Below are positions 4,958 through 41,955 of a DNA stretch of 64,000 bases, in pieces (position 1 is the first letter of the stretch; the number at the start of each line of letters is the position of its first letter). The position numbers were made by a program, and so were the translations under genes. The notes beneath the pieces were generated by a model. It ran no database searches. It saw only the letters and a list, made by a program, of their open reading frames with translations, and had not been told where the DNA came from. Location: assembly GCA_012719445.1 (NCBI GenBank), contig JAAYAH010000149.1, forward strand, positions 1-64,000, written 5' to 3'. The stretch is from Actinomycetales bacterium. Its GTDB lineage: Bacteria; Actinomycetota; Actinomycetes; Actinomycetales; Kineosporiaceae.

Positions 4958-5227
4958 ATGGTTGTGCTTGCCGCTACCGGCCTTCTTGCCGCCGCTGACG
5001 GCCCATCACTCAACGCCGACGGGGTCGTCGAGTGGGGGGTCAAGAACATCATCCCGATCGTCCTGCTCATCATCGGCATCGGGATCATCGCCAGTTCCCG
5101 CAAGGGCAAGATCAGTGACAACGCCAACACGCTGACCAACGTCATCCTCGGCTTCAGTGTCATCGCCGGAGCCGCGGTTCTCTACGGGTTCGCCGGTCAG
5201 CTCACTGATCTGGTCTTCGGCAGCTGA
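4958..5227 (+). CDS. Small two-helix membrane protein, first gene of T4SS-like operon
   Basis: 89 residues from the ATG at 4958, chosen because GGGAGGAA ends 6 nt upstream; an earlier in-frame GTG has no such site. The sequence contains an Ala/Leu-rich N-terminal stretch (VVLAATGLLAAADG), a hydrophobic helix around IIPIVLLIIGIGIIASS, a short basic loop (RKGKISDNAN) and a second helix (NVILGFSVIAGAAVLYGF). A very short two-helix protein placed ahead of VirB3-like and VirB4-like genes is the usual position of a VirB2/TrbC-type pilin or pilin-like subunit. Homology cannot be shown by eye. It is 3 nt from the next gene. Confidence 0.8.
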   Translation: MVVLAATGLLAAADGPSLNADGVVEWGVKNIIPIVLLIIGIGIIASSRKGKISDNANTLTNVILGFSVIAGAAVLYGFAGQLTDLVFGS

Positions 5228-5230
5228 GCC

Positions 5231-5638
5231 GTGCGCGTCGTCCCTGACGACGAGGTCTACCGGGTCAACACGGTGTGGCTGGGTCCACGCGGGCTCACCT
5301 TCCCCTGGACCGCCCGCTACCTGGCCTACGCCACCTGGCTGGCGACCTTCCTCGTCGTCCTCCTCGTCGAGGCGATCACGCCGCTGGACGTCGGCGTGCC
5401 GCCGGTCTGGGAGATCGCCGTCACCACCCTGTTCACCTACGCCCTGATGGGGTTCGTCGACCACGAGCGACCGGTGCGGGCGGTCTGGCAGACCTTCCTC
5501 GCCGACCTCACCGCCCCGCGCCCGCAGGCCCGCCGACTGTCCACCCGCACCACCCCGAACGTCCGGGTCGTCGAACGACGCCCACCGAGGGCGCCGTCCG
5601 AGGTGACCCCGTCCGAGGAGAGCCTGGAGGTCATGTGA
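5231..5638 (+). CDS. VirB3/PrgI-like membrane protein
   Basis: 135 residues from a GTG at 5231. Two closely spaced membrane helices (about residues 28-50 and 58-76) follow a short basic/aromatic N-terminus (YRVNTVWLGPRGLTFPWTAR). A cytoplasmic Arg/Pro-rich tail completes it. Small proteins with this layout, directly preceding a VirB4-type ATPase, are the VirB3 or PrgI components of type IV secretion systems; they recruit the ATPase to the membrane. The stop overlaps the ATPase start (TGATG), so translation is coupled. Assignment rests on topology and gene order, not on a motif. Confidence 0.75.
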   Translation: MRVVPDDEVYRVNTVWLGPRGLTFPWTARYLAYATWLATFLVVLLVEAITPLDVGVPPVWEIAVTTLFTYALMGFVDHERPVRAVWQTFLADLTAPRPQARRLSTRTTPNVRVVERRPPRAPSEVTPSEESLEVM

Positions 5639-8280
5639 TGGGCCGACGCGGTAGAGGCGACCGGCGCGCGGCGAACCTGCCGCTCGCCCTGCGCTCGATC
5701 CACGGCAACCTCGCCCTCACCGACACCTCGGCATGGGCGTGGTTCGCCGTCCCCATCCAACGGTGGGCGTTCCGGGCCGACAGCGAGCGGCTCAACCTCG
5801 TCCTCGACACCGGGTCCCGGCTGTCCGCCCTCGCCGGGCGCCAGGTCCACCTCCGGATCACCTCCCGGCCCTACCCCGCCGCCACCTGGGCGAGGGGCCT
5901 CGACGAGCGCACCGAGCGACCGGTGCGCGGGGTTCCCGGCGAGACCTGGGCCGACCACCTGGTCAGGGCCCAGAAGCACGTCCGCGCCTCGACCATGGCC
6001 GAGAAGGAGGTCTACGTCGGGGTGAGGCTGATGGAGCGGTCCGGGGTCTCCACCCTCGCCGAGCGGGTCCTGCGCCGGCCGACGGTCCGCGAGTTCGAGC
6101 GCCTCGACCGGGACGCCGCGCTGGTCGCCGAGACCGTCGCCGGCCCGGGCCTCGACGGTCGCCCCGCGAGCGCCCGCGAGATGGAGTGGCTCATGTGCCG
6201 CTCGCTCGCCCTCGGACTGCCGGCCCCCGGCGCCCTCTCCCCCGTCGACGACGGCCTGTGGGAGACCGAGGACCTCTTCGAGCTCACCGACGGCGTCCAG
6301 GCGGTCGCCGAGCCCTTCTCGCCGACGGTCCAGGTGACCCGCCGCGATCCGCTCGGCGGCACCGTCACCCGGCACGTCGCCGTACTCACCTTCGGCCGGG
6401 TGGAGGAGCTGGAGGTTCCCGAGACCGCCCTCGACCCCTGGGTCGTGCACGCCGACCGGATGCCCTTCCCCGTGGAGTGGTCCATGCGCCTGGACCTCCT
6501 CGACGGCGAGCAGGCCCTCGACGCCGTGCAGCGCAAGCTCCTCATCGTGCGGGACATGCAGCGGCACTACCGCGAGCACGACCTCGACGAGCCGCTGGCC
6601 CTGGAACGCCAGGCCCGCCAGGCCAGGGCCATCGAGGACGAGATGACCACCGGCGGGGACGTCGTCGGCACCCGGGTGCACGGCTGGTTCCGGCTGGCCG
6701 TCGCCGGCACCACCGAGGAGCAGTGCCTGGAACGGGCACGGGCCGTGGTGGACTCCTACCGCAAGCGCCGGATGACCATCGCGCACCCGAAGGGCCAGCA
6801 CGGCCTGCTCCGGGAGTTCATCCCCGGCGAGCCGCTGTCCTCGACGGCGTACCGGCGCCGGCTGCCGGTGCTGTACCTCGCCGCGGGGGTGCCCGCGGCG
6901 TCCTCGACCCTCGGCGACCGGCGCGGCCCCTACATCGGCCACACCTGCGCCTCCTCCCGGCGCGCGGTCATGTTCGACACCCACTACGCCACCGAGGTCA
7001 GGGAGACCTCCGGGCTGGTGCCGATCGTCGGCTCGCTCGGCTCCGGCAAGTCGGTGCTCGCCGGGCTGATCACCTACGAGGCCGCACGGCGCGGCATCAC
7101 CTCGGTGATGCTCGACCCGTCCGGCCCGCTGGCGCGGCTGTGCCAACTGCCGGAGCTGGCGGACGCCGCCCGGCACATCGACCTCACCTCGGCCCCGCCC
7201 GGCACGCTCAACCCCTACTCCGTCGTGCCGATCCCGCGCCCGGACGAGTACCCGACGGCCGACGCCCTGGAGGAGGCCAAGACGCTCGCGGCGCAGGACC
7301 GCAAGCTGCTGGCGCTCGACGTCGCGACGATGCTGCTGCCCCCGGCGCTGGCCTCGGCGCCGCGCACCCGGCTGCTGCTCAGCGAGGCGGTGCGGGCGAC
7401 CAAGGGCGTCCCGGTGACCAGCCTGTGGACCGTGGTCGAGCACCTCGACCGGCGCGGGGACGAGAGCGCGAGGGACATCGCCGCCTACCTGCGGGACATG
7501 GCGGAGATGCCGCTGGCCCGACTGTTCTTCCCGGCAGGCCCGGTCGGCGAGCGGGCGAGCGAGAGCGCTCCGGTACTCACCGTGCTGACCATGCCCGGGC
7601 TGGTGCTGCCGCCGCCCAACGTGCCGCGCGAGCACTGGTCGACCAGCGAGCAGCTCGCCGTCCCGCTGCTGCACCTGGCGTCCTGGTACGCCAGCCGGAC
7701 CATCTACGGCAGGGCACGGGCCGAGCGCAAGCTCGTCGCCCTCGACGAGACGCACTTCCTCGGCGAGTGGGGAGCCGGGCGGGCGCTGTTCACCCGGCTC
7801 GGCCGCGACTCCCGGAAGTGGAACACCTGCGTGCTCGCGGCCTCGCAGAACCCCGGGGATGTGCTCGGCATGGAGGTGTCCAACTTCATCTCCGCCGCCT
7901 TCGTCGGCCGGATCGAGGACGAGCAGGTCGCCGCGGACGCGCTGCGCATGCTCCGGGTCCCGGCCGGGGTCGGCTACGAGTCCGTGCTGGCCAGGCTCTC
8001 GCCGCGGTCGGCCCCCGGGGTCCGGTCAGGGCTGCGCGAGTTCGTCATGCGGGACGTCGACGGCAACGTCGACCGGATGCGGGTCGACCTCGACCACCTA
8101 CCGCACGTGCTCGCCTCCCTCGACACCACGGCGGCCCCCAGCGGTCGCGACGTGGCCGGCCAGCCGGCGCTCCCCGAGGCGCCGGAGACACAACGGGTCG
8201 CCCTCCCCGCCGGCGGCGTCGTCGACGTGGACAAGGCTGCCGGGGCTCGGGCACTGCGCGCGGCTGAGGACGTCGCATGA
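5638..8280 (+). CDS. VirB4/TraC-like conjugation ATPase
   Basis: 880 residues from the ATG at 5638, which overlaps the upstream stop. The open frame extends further upstream, but that part is the VirB3-like gene read in another frame. Walker A is GSLGSGKS (465-472) and Walker B ends in LDETH (702-706), both with the spacing of VirB4-class AAA ATPases. The N-terminal half (about 1-440) corresponds to the membrane-associated VirB4 N domain. A VirB4 protein powers assembly or substrate transfer of a type IV secretion channel at the inner face of the membrane. The length fits Gram-positive VirB4 proteins. No second VirD4-type coupling ATPase is present in this window. Confidence 0.9.
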   Translation: MGRRGRGDRRAANLPLALRSIHGNLALTDTSAWAWFAVPIQRWAFRADSERLNLVLDTGSRLSALAGRQVHLRITSRPYPAATWARGLDERTERPVRGVPGETWADHLVRAQKHVRASTMAEKEVYVGVRLMERSGVSTLAERVLRRPTVREFERLDRDAALVAETVAGPGLDGRPASAREMEWLMCRSLALGLPAPGALSPVDDGLWETEDLFELTDGVQAVAEPFSPTVQVTRRDPLGGTVTRHVAVLTFGRVEELEVPETALDPWVVHADRMPFPVEWSMRLDLLDGEQALDAVQRKLLIVRDMQRHYREHDLDEPLALERQARQARAIEDEMTTGGDVVGTRVHGWFRLAVAGTTEEQCLERARAVVDSYRKRRMTIAHPKGQHGLLREFIPGEPLSSTAYRRRLPVLYLAAGVPAASSTLGDRRGPYIGHTCASSRRAVMFDTHYATEVRETSGLVPIVGSLGSGKSVLAGLITYEAARRGITSVMLDPSGPLARLCQLPELADAARHIDLTSAPPGTLNPYSVVPIPRPDEYPTADALEEAKTLAAQDRKLLALDVATMLLPPALASAPRTRLLLSEAVRATKGVPVTSLWTVVEHLDRRGDESARDIAAYLRDMAEMPLARLFFPAGPVGERASESAPVLTVLTMPGLVLPPPNVPREHWSTSEQLAVPLLHLASWYASRTIYGRARAERKLVALDETHFLGEWGAGRALFTRLGRDSRKWNTCVLAASQNPGDVLGMEVSNFISAAFVGRIEDEQVAADALRMLRVPAGVGYESVLARLSPRSAPGVRSGLREFVMRDVDGNVDRMRVDLDHLPHVLASLDTTAAPSGRDVAGQPALPEAPETQRVALPAGGVVDVDKAAGARALRAAEDVA

Positions 8281-10469
8281 GTGCCTCACTGCGCCCGCGC
8301 CGGGTCGCCGCGATGCTGCTGGCCCTCGGCGCGGTCCTGCTGTGCGGCGTCGCCCTGCCGGCCCCGGCCGTGGCCATCCCGCTGCCGGGGGTGGACTGCA
8401 CCGAGGCTCCGACCCCCGAGGTGCCCGGGCGCGGAGTGGTCGGCTTCTTCGAGCCGCCCCCCGACTCCCCGCCCCCGGTGGCGGACCCGTTCGCCGACAA
8501 GCCGACGACGTCCATCCACGAGCAGTACGGCTACGCCGGGCTGCGCTGGAACACCTACGACCTGGGCTGCGGCCCGGACATGGCCAGGGCCCCCGACGCC
8601 CCGGTCGGCACGTCCATCGCCAACTGGATCATGACGGTCCCCAAGGCGGCCATCGCCGCGACCGGAGCCCTGCTGTCCGCCGCGTACCAACCGGAGTTCC
8701 TCGGGGTCTTCGACCCTCTCATCGCACGGGTGGTCGACACCCTGCGTCACTCGGTCTTCGAGCAGTGGCTCGGGCTGACCGTCGCGGCGCTGGGGTTCCT
8801 GCTCATCTGGCGGGCCCGGCAGGCGTCGCTGTCCAGCTCGGCCGGGGCGATCGGCTGGGCGCTGCTCGTCATGGTCATCGCCACCGTGATCTTCCGGTGG
8901 CCGCTGGTCGCGGGCAACGCCGCCGACCAGACGGTGACCTCGGTGATGTCGACCGTCACCGGAGCCCTCAACCAGGACAACGACGCCGACGGCGGCTCCC
9001 CCGGCCAGCAGGCCACCGCCAACCTGCACCACTCGCTGCTCTACCAGGCCTGGCTCGGCGGGATCTTCGGCGACTCCAACTCCGCCGTGGCCAGGAAGTA
9101 CGGCCCGGCCATCTTCGACTCCCAAGCCCTGACCTGGCGCGAGGCGGAGATCATGCGCCAGGACCCGGAACGCGGGAAGGACATCGTCCAGGCCAAGAAG
9201 GACAAGTTCGAGGCCACCGCCGCGAAGGTCAAGGCCGAGGACCCCGACGCCTACGAGTACCTCGTCGGCCGGCGGTCCGACGCCCGGGTCGGCTACGCCC
9301 TGCTGTCCCTGCTGGGGACCCTGTGCGCCATCCCGTTCCTGCTCATCTCCGCCCTGCTCGTGCTCGGGGCGCTGGTCATCGTGCGGCTCGGCGTGATGAT
9401 GTTCCCGGTGTTCGCCACCCTCGGATTGTTCGCACCGATGCGTGGTCTGGTCATCGGACTCGGCAACACGGTCGCGGCGGCAATGATCAACTCTCTGGTG
9501 TTCGGCCTCGGCACGGCAGTGATGATCAAGAGCATCGGCGTGATCATGTCGCCGGAGACCGGCCTCGCGCCATGGCTCGTCGTCGCGCTCATGCTGCTGC
9601 TGACCCTCGTCATGTGGTACGCGCTCAAGCCGTTCCGGCGACTGACCCAGATGGTCGGCGCCCGGCACAACGTCTTCTCCGACGCCGCGGGCGGCCTCGG
9701 CACGGCGGGCCGGGACACCGCCCGCGGCGGCAGGCGGCTGGTGACCGCGGGCCTGGGGTCCTTCCTCGGCAACACGGCGGCCCGCAAGGTGGCCGAGGAG
9801 GACACCGACGGGAGACGCCTGGTCCCGGCGAGGGCCGAGGCCGAGGGCACGTTCGTCCTCCCCCGGCCGGTCACCGCCCGCAAGGCGCGCCCGGCAGGTT
9901 CCGGTGGTCCCGCGGGGGGTCCCGTGGAAGGCGCTGCGGCCACGGCGGGCGGGCCGGGTGCCCCGGCAGCGGCGGCAGGGATCGCCCTCGGCGGGGCGGC
10001 GGCGGGTGCTGCCGCCGCGGCCGGTCCCGGCGGTCCCGGAGGGCCGGTGTCCGGCGGCCCGCGTGAGACCGGTGAGTCCCGGTCGGCGCGCACCGAGCGG
10101 ACCGGTGTCCACGTGTCCGGCGTCGACCGCTCGGGCGTCGACCACTCCGGCGTCGACCGTTCCGGTGGGGAACGGATCGACACCGAACGGTCCGGCACCC
10201 GGCGGTCCGGGGGCGAGCGCCCCGTTCCGGAGCGGGACGGCGGAGAGGTGTTCGTCCCCAGTCGGGGGCGGACGGCTCCCGACGCCGGCCTCGATCCGGG
10301 GGCACCCACCTACCACCCCGGTGGCAGGGAGAGCGGTGACCGGTCCTGGCATCCGGCGGCGACCGTCGACCAGATCCCGCGTCCGGTCGAACCCGAGGCC
10401 GTCGGCGGTGAGCAGGTGTACGTGATCTACCGCCCGGACGCGGGCGCCGAGGAGTCGAGTGGTGGCTGA
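8277..10469 (+). CDS. VirB6/TrbL-like polytopic membrane protein with repetitive tail
   Basis: 730 residues; ATGA overlap with the VirB4 gene. It has an N-terminal signal sequence (AAMLLALGAVLLCGVALPAP), a short outer segment, then hydrophobic helices at about 150-225 and 335-455, as in TrbL/VirB6 channel proteins. After residue about 470 a 260-residue hydrophilic tail begins. It is rich in Gly/Ala/Pro, then in short repeats of the form VDRSG/VDHSG/GERSG. In Gram-positive systems the VirB6-like protein forms the membrane pore beside VirB4. The tail repeats are encoded by imperfect direct DNA repeats near 10130-10220 and probably vary in length among strains. Confidence 0.85.
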   Translation: MSASLRPRRVAAMLLALGAVLLCGVALPAPAVAIPLPGVDCTEAPTPEVPGRGVVGFFEPPPDSPPPVADPFADKPTTSIHEQYGYAGLRWNTYDLGCGPDMARAPDAPVGTSIANWIMTVPKAAIAATGALLSAAYQPEFLGVFDPLIARVVDTLRHSVFEQWLGLTVAALGFLLIWRARQASLSSSAGAIGWALLVMVIATVIFRWPLVAGNAADQTVTSVMSTVTGALNQDNDADGGSPGQQATANLHHSLLYQAWLGGIFGDSNSAVARKYGPAIFDSQALTWREAEIMRQDPERGKDIVQAKKDKFEATAAKVKAEDPDAYEYLVGRRSDARVGYALLSLLGTLCAIPFLLISALLVLGALVIVRLGVMMFPVFATLGLFAPMRGLVIGLGNTVAAAMINSLVFGLGTAVMIKSIGVIMSPETGLAPWLVVALMLLLTLVMWYALKPFRRLTQMVGARHNVFSDAAGGLGTAGRDTARGGRRLVTAGLGSFLGNTAARKVAEEDTDGRRLVPARAEAEGTFVLPRPVTARKARPAGSGGPAGGPVEGAAATAGGPGAPAAAAGIALGGAAAGAAAAAGPGGPGGPVSGGPRETGESRSARTERTGVHVSGVDRSGVDHSGVDRSGGERIDTERSGTRRSGGERPVPERDGGEVFVPSRGRTAPDAGLDPGAPTYHPGGRESGDRSWHPAATVDQIPRPVEPEAVGGEQVYVIYRPDAGAEESSGG

Positions 10470-11049
10470 GTTCGTCGCCTGGGCCTGCCGGTCCCCACAG
10501 CGGTTGCTGACGGTCCTCGCCGTCACGCTCATCGCCGTCCTCGGGATCGGCACCCTGGTCGTCGACCACCTGTCCGACGAGACCCCCGGCACCACCACGA
10601 CCACACCGACGGTGAGCGCCGAGGTGCCCGACGCCGCACCCTTCGTGCGGACCGCGGTCGAGTTCGCCCGGCTGTGGGCCTCCCCGGAGTCCGGGCAGAG
10701 CCTGGAGCAGTGGCACGCCCGGCTCGCCCCGATGGTGACCGAGGACCTGGCGGCCGGGCTGCGGCTCACCGACCTGGCCAACCTGCCGGGCGGCGAGCCG
10801 GGCACGACCCCGACGGTGCGCTTCGTCTCCGGGGCGTCCGCCCTGGTGGCTGTCCCGCTCACCACGGGCACCACCGTCCTCGTCACCGTCGTCGACACCA
10901 GCGCCGGCTCGGCTGACGGTGACCTGGGCCCCGGCGCCGGAGCCGATCCCGGCGGGACGGCCGACCCCTCCGCGACCCAGGGTTCACCGACCGGCGTGTG
11001 GAAGGTCTCCGACGTCCAGCCCGACCGCGGGGACTACGGGTCGCCATGA
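10462..11049 (+). CDS. VirB8/TcpC-like protein
   Basis: 195 residues from GTG 10462; an adjacent GTG at 10459 is also possible, with GAGGAG at 10449-10454. The start overlaps the end of the VirB6-like gene. A single membrane helix (about 14-35, LLTVLAVTLIAVLGIGTLVV) is followed by a Thr-rich linker. A globular outer domain follows (about 55-190, beginning around FVRTAVEFARLWAS), with the helix-plus-sheet pattern of NTF2-fold VirB8/TcpC proteins. Such proteins are bitopic assembly factors of the secretion channel. Identification is by topology, domain size and gene order; no catalytic residues are expected. Confidence 0.75.
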   Translation: MAEFVAWACRSPQRLLTVLAVTLIAVLGIGTLVVDHLSDETPGTTTTTPTVSAEVPDAAPFVRTAVEFARLWASPESGQSLEQWHARLAPMVTEDLAAGLRLTDLANLPGGEPGTTPTVRFVSGASALVAVPLTTGTTVLVTVVDTSAGSADGDLGPGAGADPGGTADPSATQGSPTGVWKVSDVQPDRGDYGSP

Positions 11050-12059
11050 GCCGCCGCTGGGTGCGCCTCCTCGCTGCGACCCCCTTCGTCCTGGGGGCAG
11101 AAGTGATCACGGTGGTCGCCCTGTTCGCCGGCTCGACGACCACGTCCTCCGTCGACGACGGCACCGGCCTCGACGCCTGCACGGTCGAGTTGAGCGGCGT
11201 CGGACCGGCGACGAAGCTGGACCGGGAACAGCTGGAGAACGCGCGCACCATCATCCGGGTCGGCTCCACCATGGGGATCCCCCGGCAGGGGATCGTCATC
11301 GCCCTCGCCACGGCGATGCAGGAGTCCGGGCTGCGCAACCTCGACTACGGTCACGCGGACAGCGTCGGCCTGTTCCAGCAGCGCCCGTCGCAGGGCTGGG
11401 GGTCGATCGAGCAGCTCACCGACCCGGAGACCTCCGCACGGAAGTTCTACGCCGCCCTGCTCCAGGTCCGGGGCTGGTCCGACCTCGCGGTCACGGTTGC
11501 GGCGCAGAGCGTCCAGCGCTCCGCCTTCCCCGACGCCTACGCGAAGTGGGAGCCGCTGGCGGTCAAGCTCGCCGGGGGGTCGTCGGTGACCTGCGCGCAG
11601 ACCCTCGCCGTCACCCTGCCCGACGGTGCCGTCGGTGACATGCTGCAGGTCGCCCTCGCCCAGCAGGGCGACCCCTACGTCTGGGGCGCCACCGGCCCGG
11701 ACGCCTTCGACTGCTCCGGGCTCATCGTCTACGCCTGGCGACGGGCCGGGTACGCGCTGAGCGTCAGGGTCGCCGACGATATGTACCGGTCGGCCATGCC
11801 GGTCGCGGCGGGCAGCGAGCGACCGGGAGACCTGATCTTCACCGCCTTCGGGACCCGGGTGCCCGGTGCGGGACACGTGATGCTCGTCGTGCACCGGGGC
11901 TGGGCCGTCGAGGCGCCGAGGGCTGGGCTCGACGTCCGGCTGCGTCGGTACGACCCGATGAACCCGGCGCTGAGGTTCGGCCGGCTCACCTCCTCCGTCC
12001 TGCAGCCGCTGTCCCGCCGCCCGGCAGCGACCGGCGAATCGCCGGAACCGGTGCGGTGA
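11046..12059 (+). CDS. Bifunctional cell-wall hydrolase: lysozyme-like plus NlpC/P60
   Basis: 337 residues; ATGA overlap with the previous gene. A signal anchor (about 8-28) is followed by a transglycosylase-like region with Glu93 in AMQESGLRNL and the downstream SVGLFQQRPSQGWG motif. A C-terminal NlpC/P60 endopeptidase has Cys223 in DAFDCSGLIVYAWR and His277 in AGHVMLVV. The protein would cut both glycan strands and stem peptides outside the membrane. It matches the VirB1-like hydrolases that open peptidoglycan for Gram-positive conjugation machines. Its place at the end of the VirB3-VirB4-VirB6-VirB8 series supports a secretion role over general growth. Confidence 0.93.
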   Translation: MSRRWVRLLAATPFVLGAEVITVVALFAGSTTTSSVDDGTGLDACTVELSGVGPATKLDREQLENARTIIRVGSTMGIPRQGIVIALATAMQESGLRNLDYGHADSVGLFQQRPSQGWGSIEQLTDPETSARKFYAALLQVRGWSDLAVTVAAQSVQRSAFPDAYAKWEPLAVKLAGGSSVTCAQTLAVTLPDGAVGDMLQVALAQQGDPYVWGATGPDAFDCSGLIVYAWRRAGYALSVRVADDMYRSAMPVAAGSERPGDLIFTAFGTRVPGAGHVMLVVHRGWAVEAPRAGLDVRLRRYDPMNPALRFGRLTSSVLQPLSRRPAATGESPEPVR

Positions 12060-12196
12060 CGGGCCGACACCGGGTCGCCGGGACACAATGACCTGCGACG
12101 GTCCCGCCGCGAACCCTCCGTCGGTCCCGGGGTGGTCGCCCCTGCGCGAGACCGTTCCCACGATCGCGAGGCCGTTGGTACGACGAGGAGGAACCC

Positions 12197-12469
12197 GTGA
12201 CCGACGAGTCCCTCCCCTTCCTCGGGGAGCCCCCGACCCGACGCCCACAACGCGCCGGTGACGTCCCGGCCCTCCGCGGGAAGCGGGTGATCCTGTCCCG
12301 TCCCGACGGCTTCATCTACGACATCCGGGCGATCAGCGAGGTCTATACCGACGAGGGCGGCAAGCAGCGCGTCGACGTGTGCAGCGAGCAGGCCTACTAC
12401 CGATGGATGCTCAACGACATCCGGCCGGACACCCAGGCCTACCCGGTGTCCCTGGTCTGGGTGGAGTGA
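12197..12469 (+). CDS. Small conserved-looking protein of unknown function
   Basis: 90 residues from a GTG at 12197 with a strong GAGGAGGAA site. I recognise no family. The sequence is soluble, with a Pro/Arg-rich N-terminus and a compact C-terminal part containing LSRPDGFIYDIRAISEVY, a single Cys (VDVCSEQ) and a Trp/Tyr-rich end (YYRWML, SLVWVE). It follows the hydrolase gene by 137 bp on the same strand and may be the last gene of the secretion-like operon. A role as accessory factor or substrate is only a guess from position. Confidence 0.7.
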   Translation: MTDESLPFLGEPPTRRPQRAGDVPALRGKRVILSRPDGFIYDIRAISEVYTDEGGKQRVDVCSEQAYYRWMLNDIRPDTQAYPVSLVWVE

Positions 12470-37889: not shown

Positions 37890-37942
37890 TCTCAACGAGC
37901 GCGCCCGAAGGGATTCGAACCCCCTAACCTTCTGATCCGTAG
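37890..37942. repeat. Distal attachment-site copy (tRNA-Arg 3' fragment)
   Basis: 53 bp repeat the 3' half of the tRNA-Arg gene at 41914-41986, from the anticodon loop through the acceptor end, plus 10 bp beyond. The only difference from the copy at 41904-41955 is one extra C in the CCCC run of the T-loop region. No 5' half is present, so it is not a tRNA gene. It marks the far end of the integrated element. Confidence 0.9.
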
Positions 37943-38113
37943 GGTGCAAGGACGCGTGTCACGCAGGATCGCCTGATGCGGTCCGGCGCCTTCCGCCGCA
38001 GGTCAGTGGCGTCCCCGGTGCCCGAGTGTGTCGCTGGGTGGCGGCCCTGATGACCTCGTTCGTGAGCAACCGGTGAGCAGCGCATGGGAGTCATGGACGC
38101 CACCGGCCAGCTC

Positions 38114-39667
38114 TCACCGGTGCAGTCCGGCCACGAAGGCGACTTCACGACGCTGGTGCTCGGTGAGCGCCACCGTGGTCAGGTTCTGGGCGATGTCGGA
38201 GGCTTGGTCCTGGGTCGGCCTGCTGTAGGTGCGACACGCGTCGTGCTGGAGCCAGGCGAGTAGGTCCGTCCGCGCCGTCCGGGCGAGGTCCTGGTCGGGA
38301 TCGTGCATAGCGCGCAGGTCACTGCGTACCCGTTCCCAGGGGCCGAGTCGTTGGTGCAGGGACAGGGCGGTGCGTCGTGATCGGGGGTCGGGATCGGCTT
38401 CCAGGGTTGTCAGCACGGTGACCGGGACCTCCCCGGCCCGTTCCTGCAGGTATCGGGTTGCGGTGCGGACAACGCGGTTGGAGGGGTCGGCCAGGAGGGG
38501 GAGCAGGGGCTCGATGGGGCCTTGCTGGTGGGCGGCTCGGTGTCCGAGGATGCGGACGGCTGTGGTGCGTACCCGAGGGCTGGGGTGGGTTAGGAACGCC
38601 TGTGCGTCAGCGTCGGTGTTCTCGGCGGCGCACTCCCGCAGCCCGTCGAGAGCCGCCGCAAGGATCGACGGCCGGGTCGAGGTGGCCAGGGCCTGGCGGT
38701 ACTGGTCCGCGGGAGTGCCCCACAGCCGCGTCCAGCACCAGCGGGCGACCGATCGCACGGCCCCGGACGGGTCGAGCAGACGCGCGGCCAACTGCTCGCG
38801 GCCCAGGGCCTCCTCGGGCAGGGCGCTCCAGGCCAGGGCGCGCACCGCGGCTCGTCGAGACGTCACCAGCCGTGCGGACCACGCACACGTGCCTGGCTGT
38901 TCCGCCGAGAGCAGTCGCTGCGCGCTCCAGACGGCGAGGACCGGATCGGGATCGGCGAGGGCACGGTCCAGGAGCGCATCGGCGGCGAGCTGTTCACGGT
39001 CAGCGGCAGCCTCCAGCGCCCACAGGCGCACCGCCCGCTCGCCCACGGACGTCAACGCCAGCAGCTGGTCCTGCGGCCCGGCAGCGATCTCGTCCAGGTA
39101 GACCTGTGCCCAAGCGCCTCCCCGGCGTCGGTGCGTCAGTCGCAACATGACGGCGATGACGGCGGCCAGCTCGTCGGCGGCATCGAAACGGGACACCAAT
39201 CGCCGAGCGGCGAGAGCAACGGGGCGCACCCAGTCGTTGACGCGCACCGCGACCGCTGCTGCCGGAGCCGGCCCGCGGAGGCATCCGAGCCATGCGAGAG
39301 CGCGTTCCCGGACATGGCCGTCACGGGAGACCGACGCGGCGATGGCGACGGTGGGCTCGGTCACCTGGAGCACCTCCGCCGGCCAGACCGTGATCTGGGA
39401 CAGCGGGGAGGGGGTGTAGAGGTTGTACTGGCGCGAGAGATCGTCGAAGTGCAGCCACTGATCCCCCCGCAGGGCCCCCAGCCGGTCCTCCACGGTGCGG
39501 AGATCGTCTCGGTTCGCCGCGATGACGGCGCTGGCCAGACTGTCCACCAACTGCCGCAACGCGCGATCGTTCACGGCAGCGATGATGACCGCGTCTGGAC
39601 GGTGGATCAACGACATATCTTCGTTCGCGCTGCTGTGGCGAGATCTGTCCTCACCGTCACCGGCCAT
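38114..39667 (-). CDS. HEAT-repeat protein, cargo of the integrated element
   Basis: 517 residues from ATG 39667; ATG 39616 is an alternative start. From about residue 100 onward the sequence is a series of helical pairs of HEAT type. Examples are VRERALAWLGCL, VRPVALAARRLVSR, RAAVRALAWSALP, AVRSVARWCWTRLWG, RVRTTAVRILGHRAA, NRVVRTATRYLQER and RSRRTALSLHQRLG. The N-terminus (1-100) is unrelated and contains NDRALRQLVDSLASAV. No catalytic motif, membrane helix or signal peptide is seen. HEAT solenoids bind proteins or nucleic acids. As the only non-mobility cargo besides the toxin pair it could serve defence, regulation or maintenance; none is shown by sequence. Confidence 0.85.
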   Translation of the reverse strand: MAGDGEDRSRHSSANEDMSLIHRPDAVIIAAVNDRALRQLVDSLASAVIAANRDDLRTVEDRLGALRGDQWLHFDDLSRQYNLYTPSPLSQITVWPAEVLQVTEPTVAIAASVSRDGHVRERALAWLGCLRGPAPAAAVAVRVNDWVRPVALAARRLVSRFDAADELAAVIAVMLRLTHRRRGGAWAQVYLDEIAAGPQDQLLALTSVGERAVRLWALEAAADREQLAADALLDRALADPDPVLAVWSAQRLLSAEQPGTCAWSARLVTSRRAAVRALAWSALPEEALGREQLAARLLDPSGAVRSVARWCWTRLWGTPADQYRQALATSTRPSILAAALDGLRECAAENTDADAQAFLTHPSPRVRTTAVRILGHRAAHQQGPIEPLLPLLADPSNRVVRTATRYLQERAGEVPVTVLTTLEADPDPRSRRTALSLHQRLGPWERVRSDLRAMHDPDQDLARTARTDLLAWLQHDACRTYSRPTQDQASDIAQNLTTVALTEHQRREVAFVAGLHR

Positions 39668-39698
39668 TCATCTCGTCACCGACCGGGGAGGCTTGGGA

Positions 39699-40064
39699 TC
39701 ACCGCTGTAGGAAGATCACTTGCCCTGGTCCGAGGTGGCCAGGGGCGGCGAGGAGCTTGTCGAGCGCCTCGGTGATGGCCCCGATGAACGCGCGATCCTG
39801 GGGGAATGTTCTGGTAGGGATCAGGACGAGCCCGCTGTGGCTGCGGCCAGCCGCGGTAAGCGTGGCGTCCAGGGGGAGGAAGTCCCTGATGTTGGCCGTG
39901 ACCAGGGCCCGTCCCGAGGCTGTCGCGGTGGCGAGGATCTGGTCGTCGGGTAGTCCCTGCAGCTCGGGGTTACCGGCTACGGCGGTGACGTCGTGACCGC
40001 GCTCGCGTAGCTGCTGGGCGATCAGTGGGGTGAGCATCTCGTCCAGGAGCAGGGGGTGGGTCAT
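39699..40064 (-). CDS. PIN-like (DUF5615-type) putative toxin
   Basis: 121 residues; ATG 40064 overlaps the antitoxin stop (ATGA). The sequence fits DUF5615 PIN-like proteins: LLLDEMLTPLIAQQLRERGH, LPDDQILATATASGRALVT and TANIRDF. Acidic residues at DE (about 8-9), DD (about 41) and D (about 62) are positioned as in PIN-fold nucleases. With its upstream partner it should form a toxin-antitoxin pair, the toxin being an RNase in the cytoplasm. It would stabilise the integrated element. Confidence 0.82.
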   Translation of the reverse strand: MTHPLLLDEMLTPLIAQQLRERGHDVTAVAGNPELQGLPDDQILATATASGRALVTANIRDFLPLDATLTAAGRSHSGLVLIPTRTFPQDRAFIGAITEALDKLLAAPGHLGPGQVIFLQR

Positions 40065-40567
40065 GCTCCGCGGCGTCCCAGCAGATCGTGCTCACGGTGC
40101 CAGGCAAGCTCGGCGTCGTGTTCGACATGGGTGGCCGCGGTGATCTCGGCCTCGATCTCCTCGGGGTAGGCCGCCCAGTAGCGCACCGCGATGCGGACCA
40201 GCCGCACCGGAGTGCCGGTGTTGGTGGCGACCAGATCCACCAGGGCTGTCTCGTCGAGGTCGGGTTCGGCCTCACGGGCCGAGCGCAGCGCGCGAACGAT
40301 CTCCCAGACATCAGGGCCGGTGACCAGACCGGCGCGACGCCCGGTGGGTCCGTCCCGGAACGCCACGCCCGGATGCTCACTCATGCGCAGTCCCTCGTCG
40401 ACCAGGCGATTGGTCGCCGAGGACAGGGACCAGCCCGGCCGAGTACGCACATAGGAGGCCAACCGGTCGGCCACCTCTGTGTCGAACCGCACGGGAGTCG
40501 CAGCACGCTTCACCATGACTACATGGTATTCACTAGTCGTCGTCTTGTCATCCAGGTAGGCACTCAT
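40061..40567 (-). CDS. RHH plus DUF433-like putative antitoxin
   Basis: 168 residues from ATG 40567, overlapping the integrase stop by 4 bp. An internal ATG at the MVKRAATPVRFD position may be the true start for independent expression. The N-terminal part (PVRFDTEVADRLASYV) is ribbon-helix-helix-like. The C-terminal part (TPVRLVRIAVRYWAAYPEEI, then LAWHREHDLL) matches the DUF433-type partners typical of PIN-like DUF5615 toxins. It would bind the toxin and repress the pair. The dual overlap links integrase, antitoxin and toxin in one operon. Confidence 0.8.
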   Translation of the reverse strand: MSAYLDDKTTTSEYHVVMVKRAATPVRFDTEVADRLASYVRTRPGWSLSSATNRLVDEGLRMSEHPGVAFRDGPTGRRAGLVTGPDVWEIVRALRSAREAEPDLDETALVDLVATNTGTPVRLVRIAVRYWAAYPEEIEAEITAATHVEHDAELAWHREHDLLGRRGA

Positions 40568-41751
40568 CGGTAGAGACGGTCGATGGCGGCGGCTGCGTCG
40601 GCGTCGGTCAGGGGCAGTGCATGGCTGTAGATCCGTAGCGTGGTGGAGGCGTCGCGGTGTCCGAGGCGGTGCTGAGCCTGGAGGAGGTCACCCTGGCCGA
40701 CCAGGACCGTTGCCACGGTGTGACGCAGCCGGTGCAGGGTGACGTCGGGGTGGCCCGCTCGGGCGGCGAGGTCGATGAACCAGCGGCCCAGGCAACTGGT
40801 GGACAGTCGAACGGTGTGGTCCGGACGGGTGGAGAACAGCCATGGACCGAAGGCCGCGGGATTCGTCTCCGTGTCGTGGGTAGCTCGGTCGCGCCAAGCG
40901 GCAACGCTTGTTCGCCACAGGTCGGCCGCGCCGGCGCCCAGGGTGAGCCGTCTGCTGCGCCCGCTCTTGGTCGGACCGACGATCTCGTTGGAGGTGCCCC
41001 GGCTGATCGTGAGCACCTCACCGTCGAGGTCGCCGAACTGGAGCGCGGCCAGCTCCCCTCGCCGGGCCCCGGTGTCGGCTGCGAGCCGGGCCAACAGCAG
41101 CACCTGCTCAGCCCGATGGACCTCAGCCTCAGCGCTCCCGGCGGTTCGCGAGGCCGCCCGGGCCGCCTCCACTTCAGCGGTCGCGCGTTCCAGGATCCTG
41201 CGGACCGTCTCGACGGGGGCGTGCAGCCTGGTCGGGCCCGTCGCCGGGCCCCGCATTCCCCGAAGCGGGGGAGCGTCGAGGACACCCTCGCGGTAGGCCC
41301 AGGTGAACGCCGACCGTAGACAGCGCACCCGGGAGGCGATCGTCGCCGAACCCACACCGATCGTGGTCCATACCCGCATCCCTGCTCGCAGGACCTGCGG
41401 GGTCACCGCAGCGGCACGCCGGGTACCGAGGGCGTCCGCGCTCAGGGCCTTCACCGTCGAGGTGTAGCCGGCCAGCGTCGAGGGCCGCCAGCCGTGGGGG
41501 GCGATCAGCCATCGGTCGAGCAGGTCCGCGACCGCGATGCCCGGATCGCTGTGACGACCGGCGCGCACCTGGGCCGCTGTCGCCGCCCACCGGGTCAACG
41601 CAGCGCGCGCGTCCTCTTCCCCGCCACGAACCGTCAGGGAGCGCACGAGACTGCGGCCGGTCACCAGATCCGGCCCGAGCGCCACCCGCAGTTCCCACAC
41701 CCCGGGTCGACGTTCACGTAACGACCCCGAGCCTCGCGATCTGTTCGTCAT
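40564..41751 (-). CDS. int: Tyrosine recombinase (site-specific integrase)
   Basis: 395 residues from ATG 41751; a GTG at 41772 is also possible. Neither start has a strong ribosome site. The N-terminal arm-binding and core-binding domains (about 1-175) precede a catalytic domain with the full set: Arg230 (TGARRGEL), Lys262 (TKSGRSRR), His340 and Arg343 (HRLRH), His365 (LGHRD) and Tyr375 (TLRIYSHA). It integrates the element by recombination between tRNA-Arg and the element's att site. The gene reads away from the tRNA and is 162 bp from it. Conserved residues suggest it is active. Confidence 0.95.
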   Translation of the reverse strand: MTNRSRGSGSLRERRPGVWELRVALGPDLVTGRSLVRSLTVRGGEEDARAALTRWAATAAQVRAGRHSDPGIAVADLLDRWLIAPHGWRPSTLAGYTSTVKALSADALGTRRAAAVTPQVLRAGMRVWTTIGVGSATIASRVRCLRSAFTWAYREGVLDAPPLRGMRGPATGPTRLHAPVETVRRILERATAEVEAARAASRTAGSAEAEVHRAEQVLLLARLAADTGARRGELAALQFGDLDGEVLTISRGTSNEIVGPTKSGRSRRLTLGAGAADLWRTSVAAWRDRATHDTETNPAAFGPWLFSTRPDHTVRLSTSCLGRWFIDLAARAGHPDVTLHRLRHTVATVLVGQGDLLQAQHRLGHRDASTTLRIYSHALPLTDADAAAAIDRLYR

Positions 41752-41804
41752 GCCCGACGGTAGGCACACCACAGATGCCCCGACGGGGACCCGGTGTCAC
41801 GGCA

Positions 41805-41826
41805 GTTGTTGGGATCGTTGTTGGGA
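41805..41826. repeat. Decamer direct repeat, possible integrase arm sites
   Basis: GTTGTTGGGA occurs at 41805-41814 and 41817-41826, spaced by 2 bp, between the integrase start and the att copy. Short direct repeats at this place are typical arm-type binding sites of tyrosine integrases. Inference from position only. Confidence 0.45.
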
Positions 41827-41903
41827 CGCCAGCAGATCCGCCTCACCGACCGAGACGGAATCTACGCGGCGTTTCCGCAGGTCGGAGGCCGTCTCGGTAG
41901 CCA

Positions 41904-41955
41904 TCTCAACGAGCGCGCCCGAAGGGATTCGAACCCCTAACCTTCTGATCCGTAG
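41904..41955. repeat. tRNA-proximal attachment-site copy
   Basis: 52 bp match 37890-37942 except for one fewer C. It covers the 3' half of tRNA-Arg and 10 bp beyond, so integration restores a functional tRNA. Confidence 0.9.

Follow-up and report, generated by a model that had tools for sequence, protein, structure and literature searches.

A chromosomally fixed, relaxase-less type IV secretion-like operon inherited at the family level in actinobacteria

Positions 4958-12469 of a 64,000-base stretch of DNA from a Kineosporiaceae member of the Actinomycetales hold, on the plus strand, an operon of seven conserved genes resembling the core of a Gram-positive type IV secretion system (T4SS). The stretch, hereafter the window, comprises bases 1-64000 of the 66,271-base contig C111, part of a 5.42 Mb assembly of 283 contigs that is 99% complete. 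Gene content and order, intact catalytic motifs, purifying selection and family-level inheritance are all observed, and no homologue of a relaxase, a type IV coupling protein (T4CP) or an integrase occurs in the neighbourhoods read. We consider it probable, though by no means settled, that the operon encodes a domesticated, chromosomally fixed, relaxase-independent and wall-spanning translocation machine of the Tcp/Tn916 (MPF-FA) class, which has been split from the DNA-processing half of conjugation. The genes are as follows, with lengths in amino acids (aa) and transmembrane segments abbreviated TM; gene calls outside annotated plasmids came from a simple codon-usage script, and some starts and small genes are unreliable.

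4958..5227, plus strand: 89-aa protein with two TM helices (segments 27-45 and 62-80) in a VirB2/TcpD-like position; its place as first gene is conserved
5231..5638, plus strand: 135-aa VirB3-like membrane protein, labelled by position; its gene lies immediately upstream of virB4 and overlaps it
5635..8280, plus strand: VirB4-type ATPase of about 880 aa, matching AAA_10 and TcpF; start probably at 5635 or 5638
8277..10469, plus strand: VirB6/TrbL-like polytopic membrane protein, 730 aa, of the CD3337/EF1877 family, with 7 TM-like segments
10459..11049, plus strand: VirB8-like single-TM protein, 196 aa, with a predicted NTF2-like outer domain (AlphaFold model, Foldseek)
11046..12059, plus strand: VirB1/TcpG-like cell-wall hydrolase, 337 aa, with a signal or TM segment and lysozyme-like and NlpC/P60 domains (SLT_3, NLPC_P60)
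12197..12469, plus strand: 90-aa protein, soluble with a small beta-rich model, the seventh conserved member by family and tblastn recurrence

Neighbours among the first six genes overlap or abut within 4 bases, and 138 bases separate the hydrolase gene from the 90-aa gene. Neighbourhood gene calls and clustering revealed the identical gene order in dozens of genomes, a recurrence that excludes chance. The initial annotation had described a six-gene operon with a Gram-positive T4SS core; the order it gave is borne out by this recurrence and by profile searches that back VirB4, VirB6 and the hydrolase, and its six tightly packed genes stand, but it had overlooked the seventh.

Profile searches matched the VirB4 protein to AAA_10 above the cut-off (E 2.6e-26) and to the TcpF ATPase (E 5.1e-35, though under the curated cut-off of that model), and its Walker A lysine and Walker B glutamate are invariant in all 57 of 57 relatives; a sequence search of the PDB returned no match to it. 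The hydrolase matched NLPC_P60 (E 3.6e-13) and, weakly, the lysozyme-like SLT_3 (E 0.008), its catalytic cysteine and histidine are present, and the lysozyme glutamate is kept in 52 of 53 relatives. The predicted identities of these two proteins are strongly supported. Moderate support exists for the predicted VirB6-like protein, which matched the CD3337/EF1877 mobilome membrane protein model NF046089 (E 1.7e-5, under the model's curated cut-off) and whose homologue in a Streptosporangiales version of the operon matched TrbL (PF04610, E 5e-9) above the cut-off. The VirB8-like protein had no Pfam match; its AlphaFold model (pLDDT 82.9) found as top PDB match the IcmL/VirB8-like T4SS protein 5cnl (Foldseek probability 0.99, E 0.017), with TraH of pIP501 also among the PDB matches. 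In hhalign comparisons it reached 97% with the Streptosporangiales VirB8-like family, a single member of which matches TcpC weakly, and only 26% with the strong TcpC family. The VirB3-like family has 6 invariant alignment columns, and its similarity to TcpE is undetectable (hhalign probability 3.6%), so that equating it with TcpE by profile is unsupported. No Pfam or NCBIfam family was found for the 89-aa protein, which is the conserved first gene in 49 aligned neighbourhoods; its VirB2 label is positional. Members of the 90-aa family were found at the equivalent place in 52 of 80 neighbourhoods and by tblastn similarity in 70, and the domain is tandemly duplicated in Micromonosporaceae. Its model (pLDDT 89) suggests a small, beta-rich, soluble fold; a fold search gave weak tudor/SH3-like matches, to which we attach no interpretation.

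The second domain of the hydrolase differs by lineage. Kineosporiaceae, Streptosporangiales and the plasmids have NlpC/P60 there, the two families Micromonosporaceae and Nocardioidaceae have M23, and elements of Kineosporiaceae have VanY. Inactivation of the Micromonosporaceae hydrolase through loss of the NlpC cysteine was rejected, the domain having been swapped for M23. This exchange of one peptidoglycan peptidase for another indicates that wall cutting is the selected property, and thus favours a working wall-spanning channel.

A scan of GTDB contigs yielded 217 relatives, and 80 of these, including Kineosporia, Nocardioides, Micromonospora, Actinoplanes, Salinispora and Dactylosporangium, were kept for neighbourhood analysis. 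The nearest named genomes, with VirB4 about 80% identical, are those of Kineosporia species, in line with the placement of the window genome in Kineosporiaceae, and the operon order including the 90-aa gene is kept in most of the 80 neighbourhoods. Among Micromonosporaceae genomes at least 95% complete, a survey that scored VirB4 rather than the whole operon found it in 198 of 201 genomes and 37 of 38 genera, mostly as a single copy; in the neighbourhoods read from this family the operon lies between folP/folB/folK and ftsH. In the VirB4 tree Kineosporiaceae, Nocardioidaceae, Micromonosporaceae, Streptosporangiales and Streptomyces each form one clade (SH-aLRT 96-100), and the copies from plasmids and elements branch at several places; the tree is a quick build with some long branches, and its deep joins are unsure. 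Within Kineosporia the ratio of nonsynonymous to synonymous substitution rates (dN/dS) was about 0.1 for VirB2-4, 0.16-0.4 for VirB6 and the hydrolase, and about 0.5 for VirB8. The operon is inherited vertically at the family level and is chromosomally fixed, not a remnant of an integrative conjugative element (ICE). Its close relatives being fixed chromosomal genes, the initial annotation was right that the setting is chromosomal and that the operon alone is no conjugation system, and membership in an integrated conjugative element, which it had named as a finding that would overturn its reading, is largely refuted.

We also examined where conjugation genes lie. Gene calls and Pfam searches of the whole assembly detected no relaxase and no coupling ATPase of the VirD4 or FtsK type on C111, including the 2.27 kb of contig to the right of the window, where the initial annotation had left room for a relaxase and VirD4; both are encoded on other contigs. 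An FtsK/TraB translocase adjoins the operon neither in the window nor at the Kineosporia chromosomal locus. No integrase and att pair bracketing the operon was found on the contig, on which only 4.96 kb precede the operon. Farther downstream, at 37890-41955, lies a tRNA-Arg island with a 53-base direct att repeat (copies at 37890-37942 and 41904-41955) and a tyrosine integrase (40564-41700, minus strand); it also holds a HEAT-repeat protein and two small genes resembling a toxin-antitoxin pair. The claim that no relaxase, coupling ATPase, integrase or tRNA att site is nearby therefore holds for the contig beside the operon, but overlooks this island 26-30 kb away. Because the att repeats bracket only 4 kb (37.9-42.0 kb), we rejected the operon as a part of the island.

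In a neighbourhood survey of the kind that the initial annotation had proposed, gene order is conserved, and homologues of the window genome's T4CPs, MOBF relaxases and integrase occur in none of 101 neighbourhoods (1.94 Mb). MOBF relaxases, the only relaxase class covered in the relatives, were absent from the complete operon-bearing genomes G010 (Kineosporia), G134 and three Streptosporangiales (G372, G260, G191), and no TraG-D_C T4CP was detected in G010, a single-contig Kineosporia genome carrying the operon, or in the genomes G001 and G005. Thus, the operon is retained without those partners, and obligate pairing with VirD4-type T4CPs elsewhere in the genome was rejected.

Elsewhere in the window genome, assembly-wide Pfam searches found six VirD4-type T4CPs (on C143, C188, C7, C275, C121 and C199, with a further weak match on C95), three MOBF relaxases (PF08751, on C49, C121 and C199) and FtsK-type genes (PF01580) on contigs other than C111; PF03432 is absent from the genome. 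C121 (6953-16166, locus L121) and C199 (6390-15559, L122) carry near-identical elements with a 1400-aa MOBF relaxase, DUF2637 and a VirD4-like T4CP, have no VirB4 on their own contigs and are candidates for borrowing a T4SS. A further T4SS on C95 (4592-11800, L124) has a PrgI-VirB4 fusion, a TrbL-like protein and its own T4CP, and a large MOBF relaxase on C49 (3910-8841, L123) may belong to it. The short, near-identical contigs C143, C188 and C7 (L117, L102 and L118), each of which encodes a 640-aa VirD4-like T4CP with a DnaB-like gene after it, are apparently pieces of a multi-copy element that the assembly broke up. C76 (L242) and C191 (L243) hold a third T4SS-like type, clusters in which VirB4 is split in the SCO6880-family manner and which include an NlpC hydrolase of their own.

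Many family f33 genomes carry a more divergent version of the operon, whose VirB4 is 35-38% identical. These copies are 89% identical to Nonomuraea gerenzanensis and 71-74% to Nocardiopsis, which places f33 in the Streptosporangiales; the names of families f33, f35 and f48 were inferred in this way from named near-identical sequences. Matches to TcpC (PF12642, E 5e-18) and, as one domain of a larger protein, to TcpE (E 3e-21) in the Streptosporangiales cassette connect the whole group with the Tcp/MPF-FA class. In several of these loci (L170 6255-9023, L171 6538-9225, L174 3822-9242 and others) a long low-complexity linker connects the TcpE (VirB3-like) domain with a MinD/ParA-like one, giving proteins of up to 1807 aa encoded between the small two-TM gene and virB4. 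We know of no described counterpart of this fusion.

The same VirB2/3/4/6/8/hydrolase cassette also occurs on mobile DNA. It is present on a plasmid of Nonomuraea NBC_00507 and on the linear Streptomyces plasmids pRVR2 and pSSFR2, all three typed as non-mobilizable (that is, with no recognised relaxase), and in element-like regions of the Kineosporiaceae genomes G010 and G011. VirB4 identity is about 40% for the plasmid copies and 66% for the G010 element. An FtsK/SpoIIIE-domain protein is adjacent or nearby in 4 of 5 mobile copies, pSSFR2 having a DUF2637 gene instead, and regulators and partition genes also accompany these copies. In the VirB4 tree the sister of the Kineosporiaceae chromosomal clade is the G010 element copy (L127), from a region with FtsK and GntR genes. 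The cassette exists in two forms, as a transfer module with an FtsK/TraB-type motor and, in Kineosporiaceae, as a stable chromosomal module without the motor. An FtsK/EccC-like protein (family 27) is encoded just downstream of the operon in 53 of the 101 neighbourhoods, those of Micromonosporaceae. Family 27 proteins of about 870 aa are also encoded in Kineosporiaceae away from the operon (L216 5252-8505 in G010, L217 5799-8375 in G001 and L219 6181-8808 in G005); in G010 and G001 a small gene of family 22 accompanies them as a partner. No family 27 orthologue was found among the PF01580 matches of the 99% complete window assembly, and obligate pairing with this protein was accordingly rejected.

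Compared with the Tcp system of pCW3 (Clostridium perfringens), Tn916 and ICEBs1 (MPF-FA), the operon shares a VirB4 whose best match is TcpF, a small membrane protein upstream of virB4, VirB6-like and putative VirB8-like proteins and an NlpC-type hydrolase; furthermore, VirB4 of the Streptosporangiales relatives is 30% identical to the VirB4 encoded in annotated conjugal-transfer regions of Bacillus plasmids. It differs in having no TcpA/VirD4 coupling protein, relaxase or mobile element, in its fixed chromosomal location, in a VirB3-like protein not recognisable as TcpE and in the additional 90-aa gene. MPF-FA systems, TcpA as an FtsK-like protein and TraB/Spd transfer are covered in a review (PMC12857230). 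The cluster cmdABCDEF (SCO4126-4131) of Streptomyces coelicolor is likewise chromosomal and relaxase-less and is conserved in its genus (PMC2782261), and it shares with the operon a VirB4-type ATPase, a VirB6-like protein and small membrane proteins. However, Streptomyces loci of the cmd layout (L240, L241 and L244, picked by their match to the described layout, the genus taken from a Streptomyces plasmid to which a second replicon is 100% identical) divide VirB4 between two proteins, one of the SCO6880 family and one a separate ATPase, and also encode a TraG-D_C protein (CmdA-like, E 7e-6), whereas the operon encodes a single 880-aa VirB4 with no SCO6880_fam match, and the VirB4 profile covers only the motor domain of the CmdB-like ATPase. 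With VirB4 split and the gene set different, orthology was rejected, and judged by sequence cmdABCDEF is a distant analogue. A third, mid-chromosomal Streptomyces cluster, separate from cmd (L220, L221 and L222), encodes TcpC, an 87-aa protein, VirB4 (about 1000 aa), a lipoprotein and VirB6, beside a divergent hydrolase gene with M23 and NlpC-like domains.

VirB4 clusters without a neighbouring relaxase have been termed MOBless T4SS (Guglielmini et al. 2011, PMC3158045). The operon shares this feature with them; those systems were studied mainly in proteobacteria and include known protein-export examples, whereas here a whole actinobacterial family holds VirB4 as a core gene. Together with the deleted and phenotyped cmdABCDEF (PMC2782261), they mean that the general idea, which the initial annotation had put forward as its strongest candidate for novelty, is not new. 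In the literature searched we found no report of the operon as a core feature of a family; the Micromonospora lupini genome paper mentions a lone 'VirB4-like' gene with neighbours of unknown function (PMC4182475).

Several other explanations were weighed. The operon could be a shared conjugation channel that elements with only a relaxase and T4CP, or only an FtsK/TraB motor, borrow in trans. Consistent with this, the window genome has six VirD4-like T4CPs alongside its three MOBF relaxases, a combination of MOBF, T4CP and DUF2637 with no VirB4 on the contig is seen in at least two near-identical elements (C121 and C199), mobile copies of the cassette adjoin FtsK-like motors, and Guglielmini et al. 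(PMC3158045), noting many relaxases and few T4SS in actinobacteria, suggested that use in trans is possible. We nevertheless find borrowing doubtful: the operon is present in G010, G001 and G005 without a detected T4CP or MOBF relaxase and is near-universal in Micromonosporaceae regardless, the separate C95 system brings its own T4CP, and transfer of an SLP2-derived plasmid was unaffected by cmd deletion (PMC2782261). A chromosomal machine for double-stranded DNA, in which the channel and a chromosomal FtsK/EccC-like ATPase together would pass DNA between compartments or release it, a role proposed for Streptomyces cmd, seems quite unlikely. It would fit family 27 downstream of the operon in Micromonosporaceae with orthologues in three other Kineosporiaceae genomes, the membership of VirB4 and T4CPs in the FtsK/HerA superfamily (PMC12857230) and the chromosome mis-segregation of cmd mutants (PMC2782261); however, the window genome has the operon and no family 27 orthologue among its PF01580 matches, and genome G003, which has no operon, does have a weak 915-aa T4CP/FtsK-like frame, so that the pairing is not obligate.

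We judge it very unlikely that the proteins transport nothing and serve solely as a membrane complex for wall remodelling or sensing. The hydrolase is indeed the most modular part, and it and the VirB8-like gene evolve fastest, but the cassette always includes the VirB4 ATPase and the VirB6-like channel protein, and the Walker residues do not vary. A decaying or silent ICE remnant is scarcely credible. Although the closest sister of the Kineosporiaceae clade (L127) comes from a region that resembles an element and includes FtsK and GntR genes, and an integrase-bearing tRNA-Arg island is 26 kb off, that island's repeats bracket only 4 kb, all genes of the operon are open, their catalytic motifs are intact and VirB2-4 evolve at a dN/dS of about 0.1. 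An ICE or plasmid origin as a remnant was rejected on family-wide conservation, selection and fixed location and is largely refuted.

We therefore return to the domesticated, relaxase-independent translocation machine as the preferred reading. In such a machine VirB3, VirB6, VirB8 and the 89-aa protein would form an inner-membrane channel, ATP hydrolysis by VirB4 would power assembly and transport, the secreted hydrolase would open the peptidoglycan and so let the channel through to the exterior or to a neighbouring cell, and the soluble 90-aa protein might act as an adaptor. Since the chromosomal form has no DNA motor reliably associated with it, protein export or a role in local cell-to-cell or hyphal contact, much as the initial annotation had suggested, appears likeliest. 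Several observations weigh against this reading. No substrate, adaptor or effector was identified; the VirB8-like protein is recognised by its predicted structure alone, weak evidence of identity, and the VirB3 label follows from position, size and conservation. The chromosomal position of the operon varies between families, and family 27 in Micromonosporaceae could be a DNA or protein motor. In addition, cmd deletion delayed sporulation and caused chromosomes to mis-segregate (PMC2782261), which fits a DNA-related role too. More tentatively, we propose that the operon is one instance of a T4SS-derived core machine, free of relaxase and coupling protein and vertically inherited in at least four actinobacterial groups, that might deliver proteins or other non-plasmid cargo across the wall or into neighbours with VirB4 as the sole substrate-recognising ATPase needed.

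Altogether, soil actinobacteria, including essentially all of one large family, keep a plasmid-type wall-crossing channel without the DNA-handling genes, and this channel probably exports something other than plasmids or serves neighbouring cells. Relaxase-less T4SS are common, and their roles outside pathogens are largely unknown. The near-universal, mostly single-copy presence of VirB4 in Micromonosporaceae (Micromonospora, Salinispora, Actinoplanes), many of them culturable antibiotic producers, bears on the possible transfer of actinobacterial elements that have a relaxase but no T4SS of their own, and core-gene status makes the role of a relaxase-less T4SS in a free-living bacterium unusually testable.

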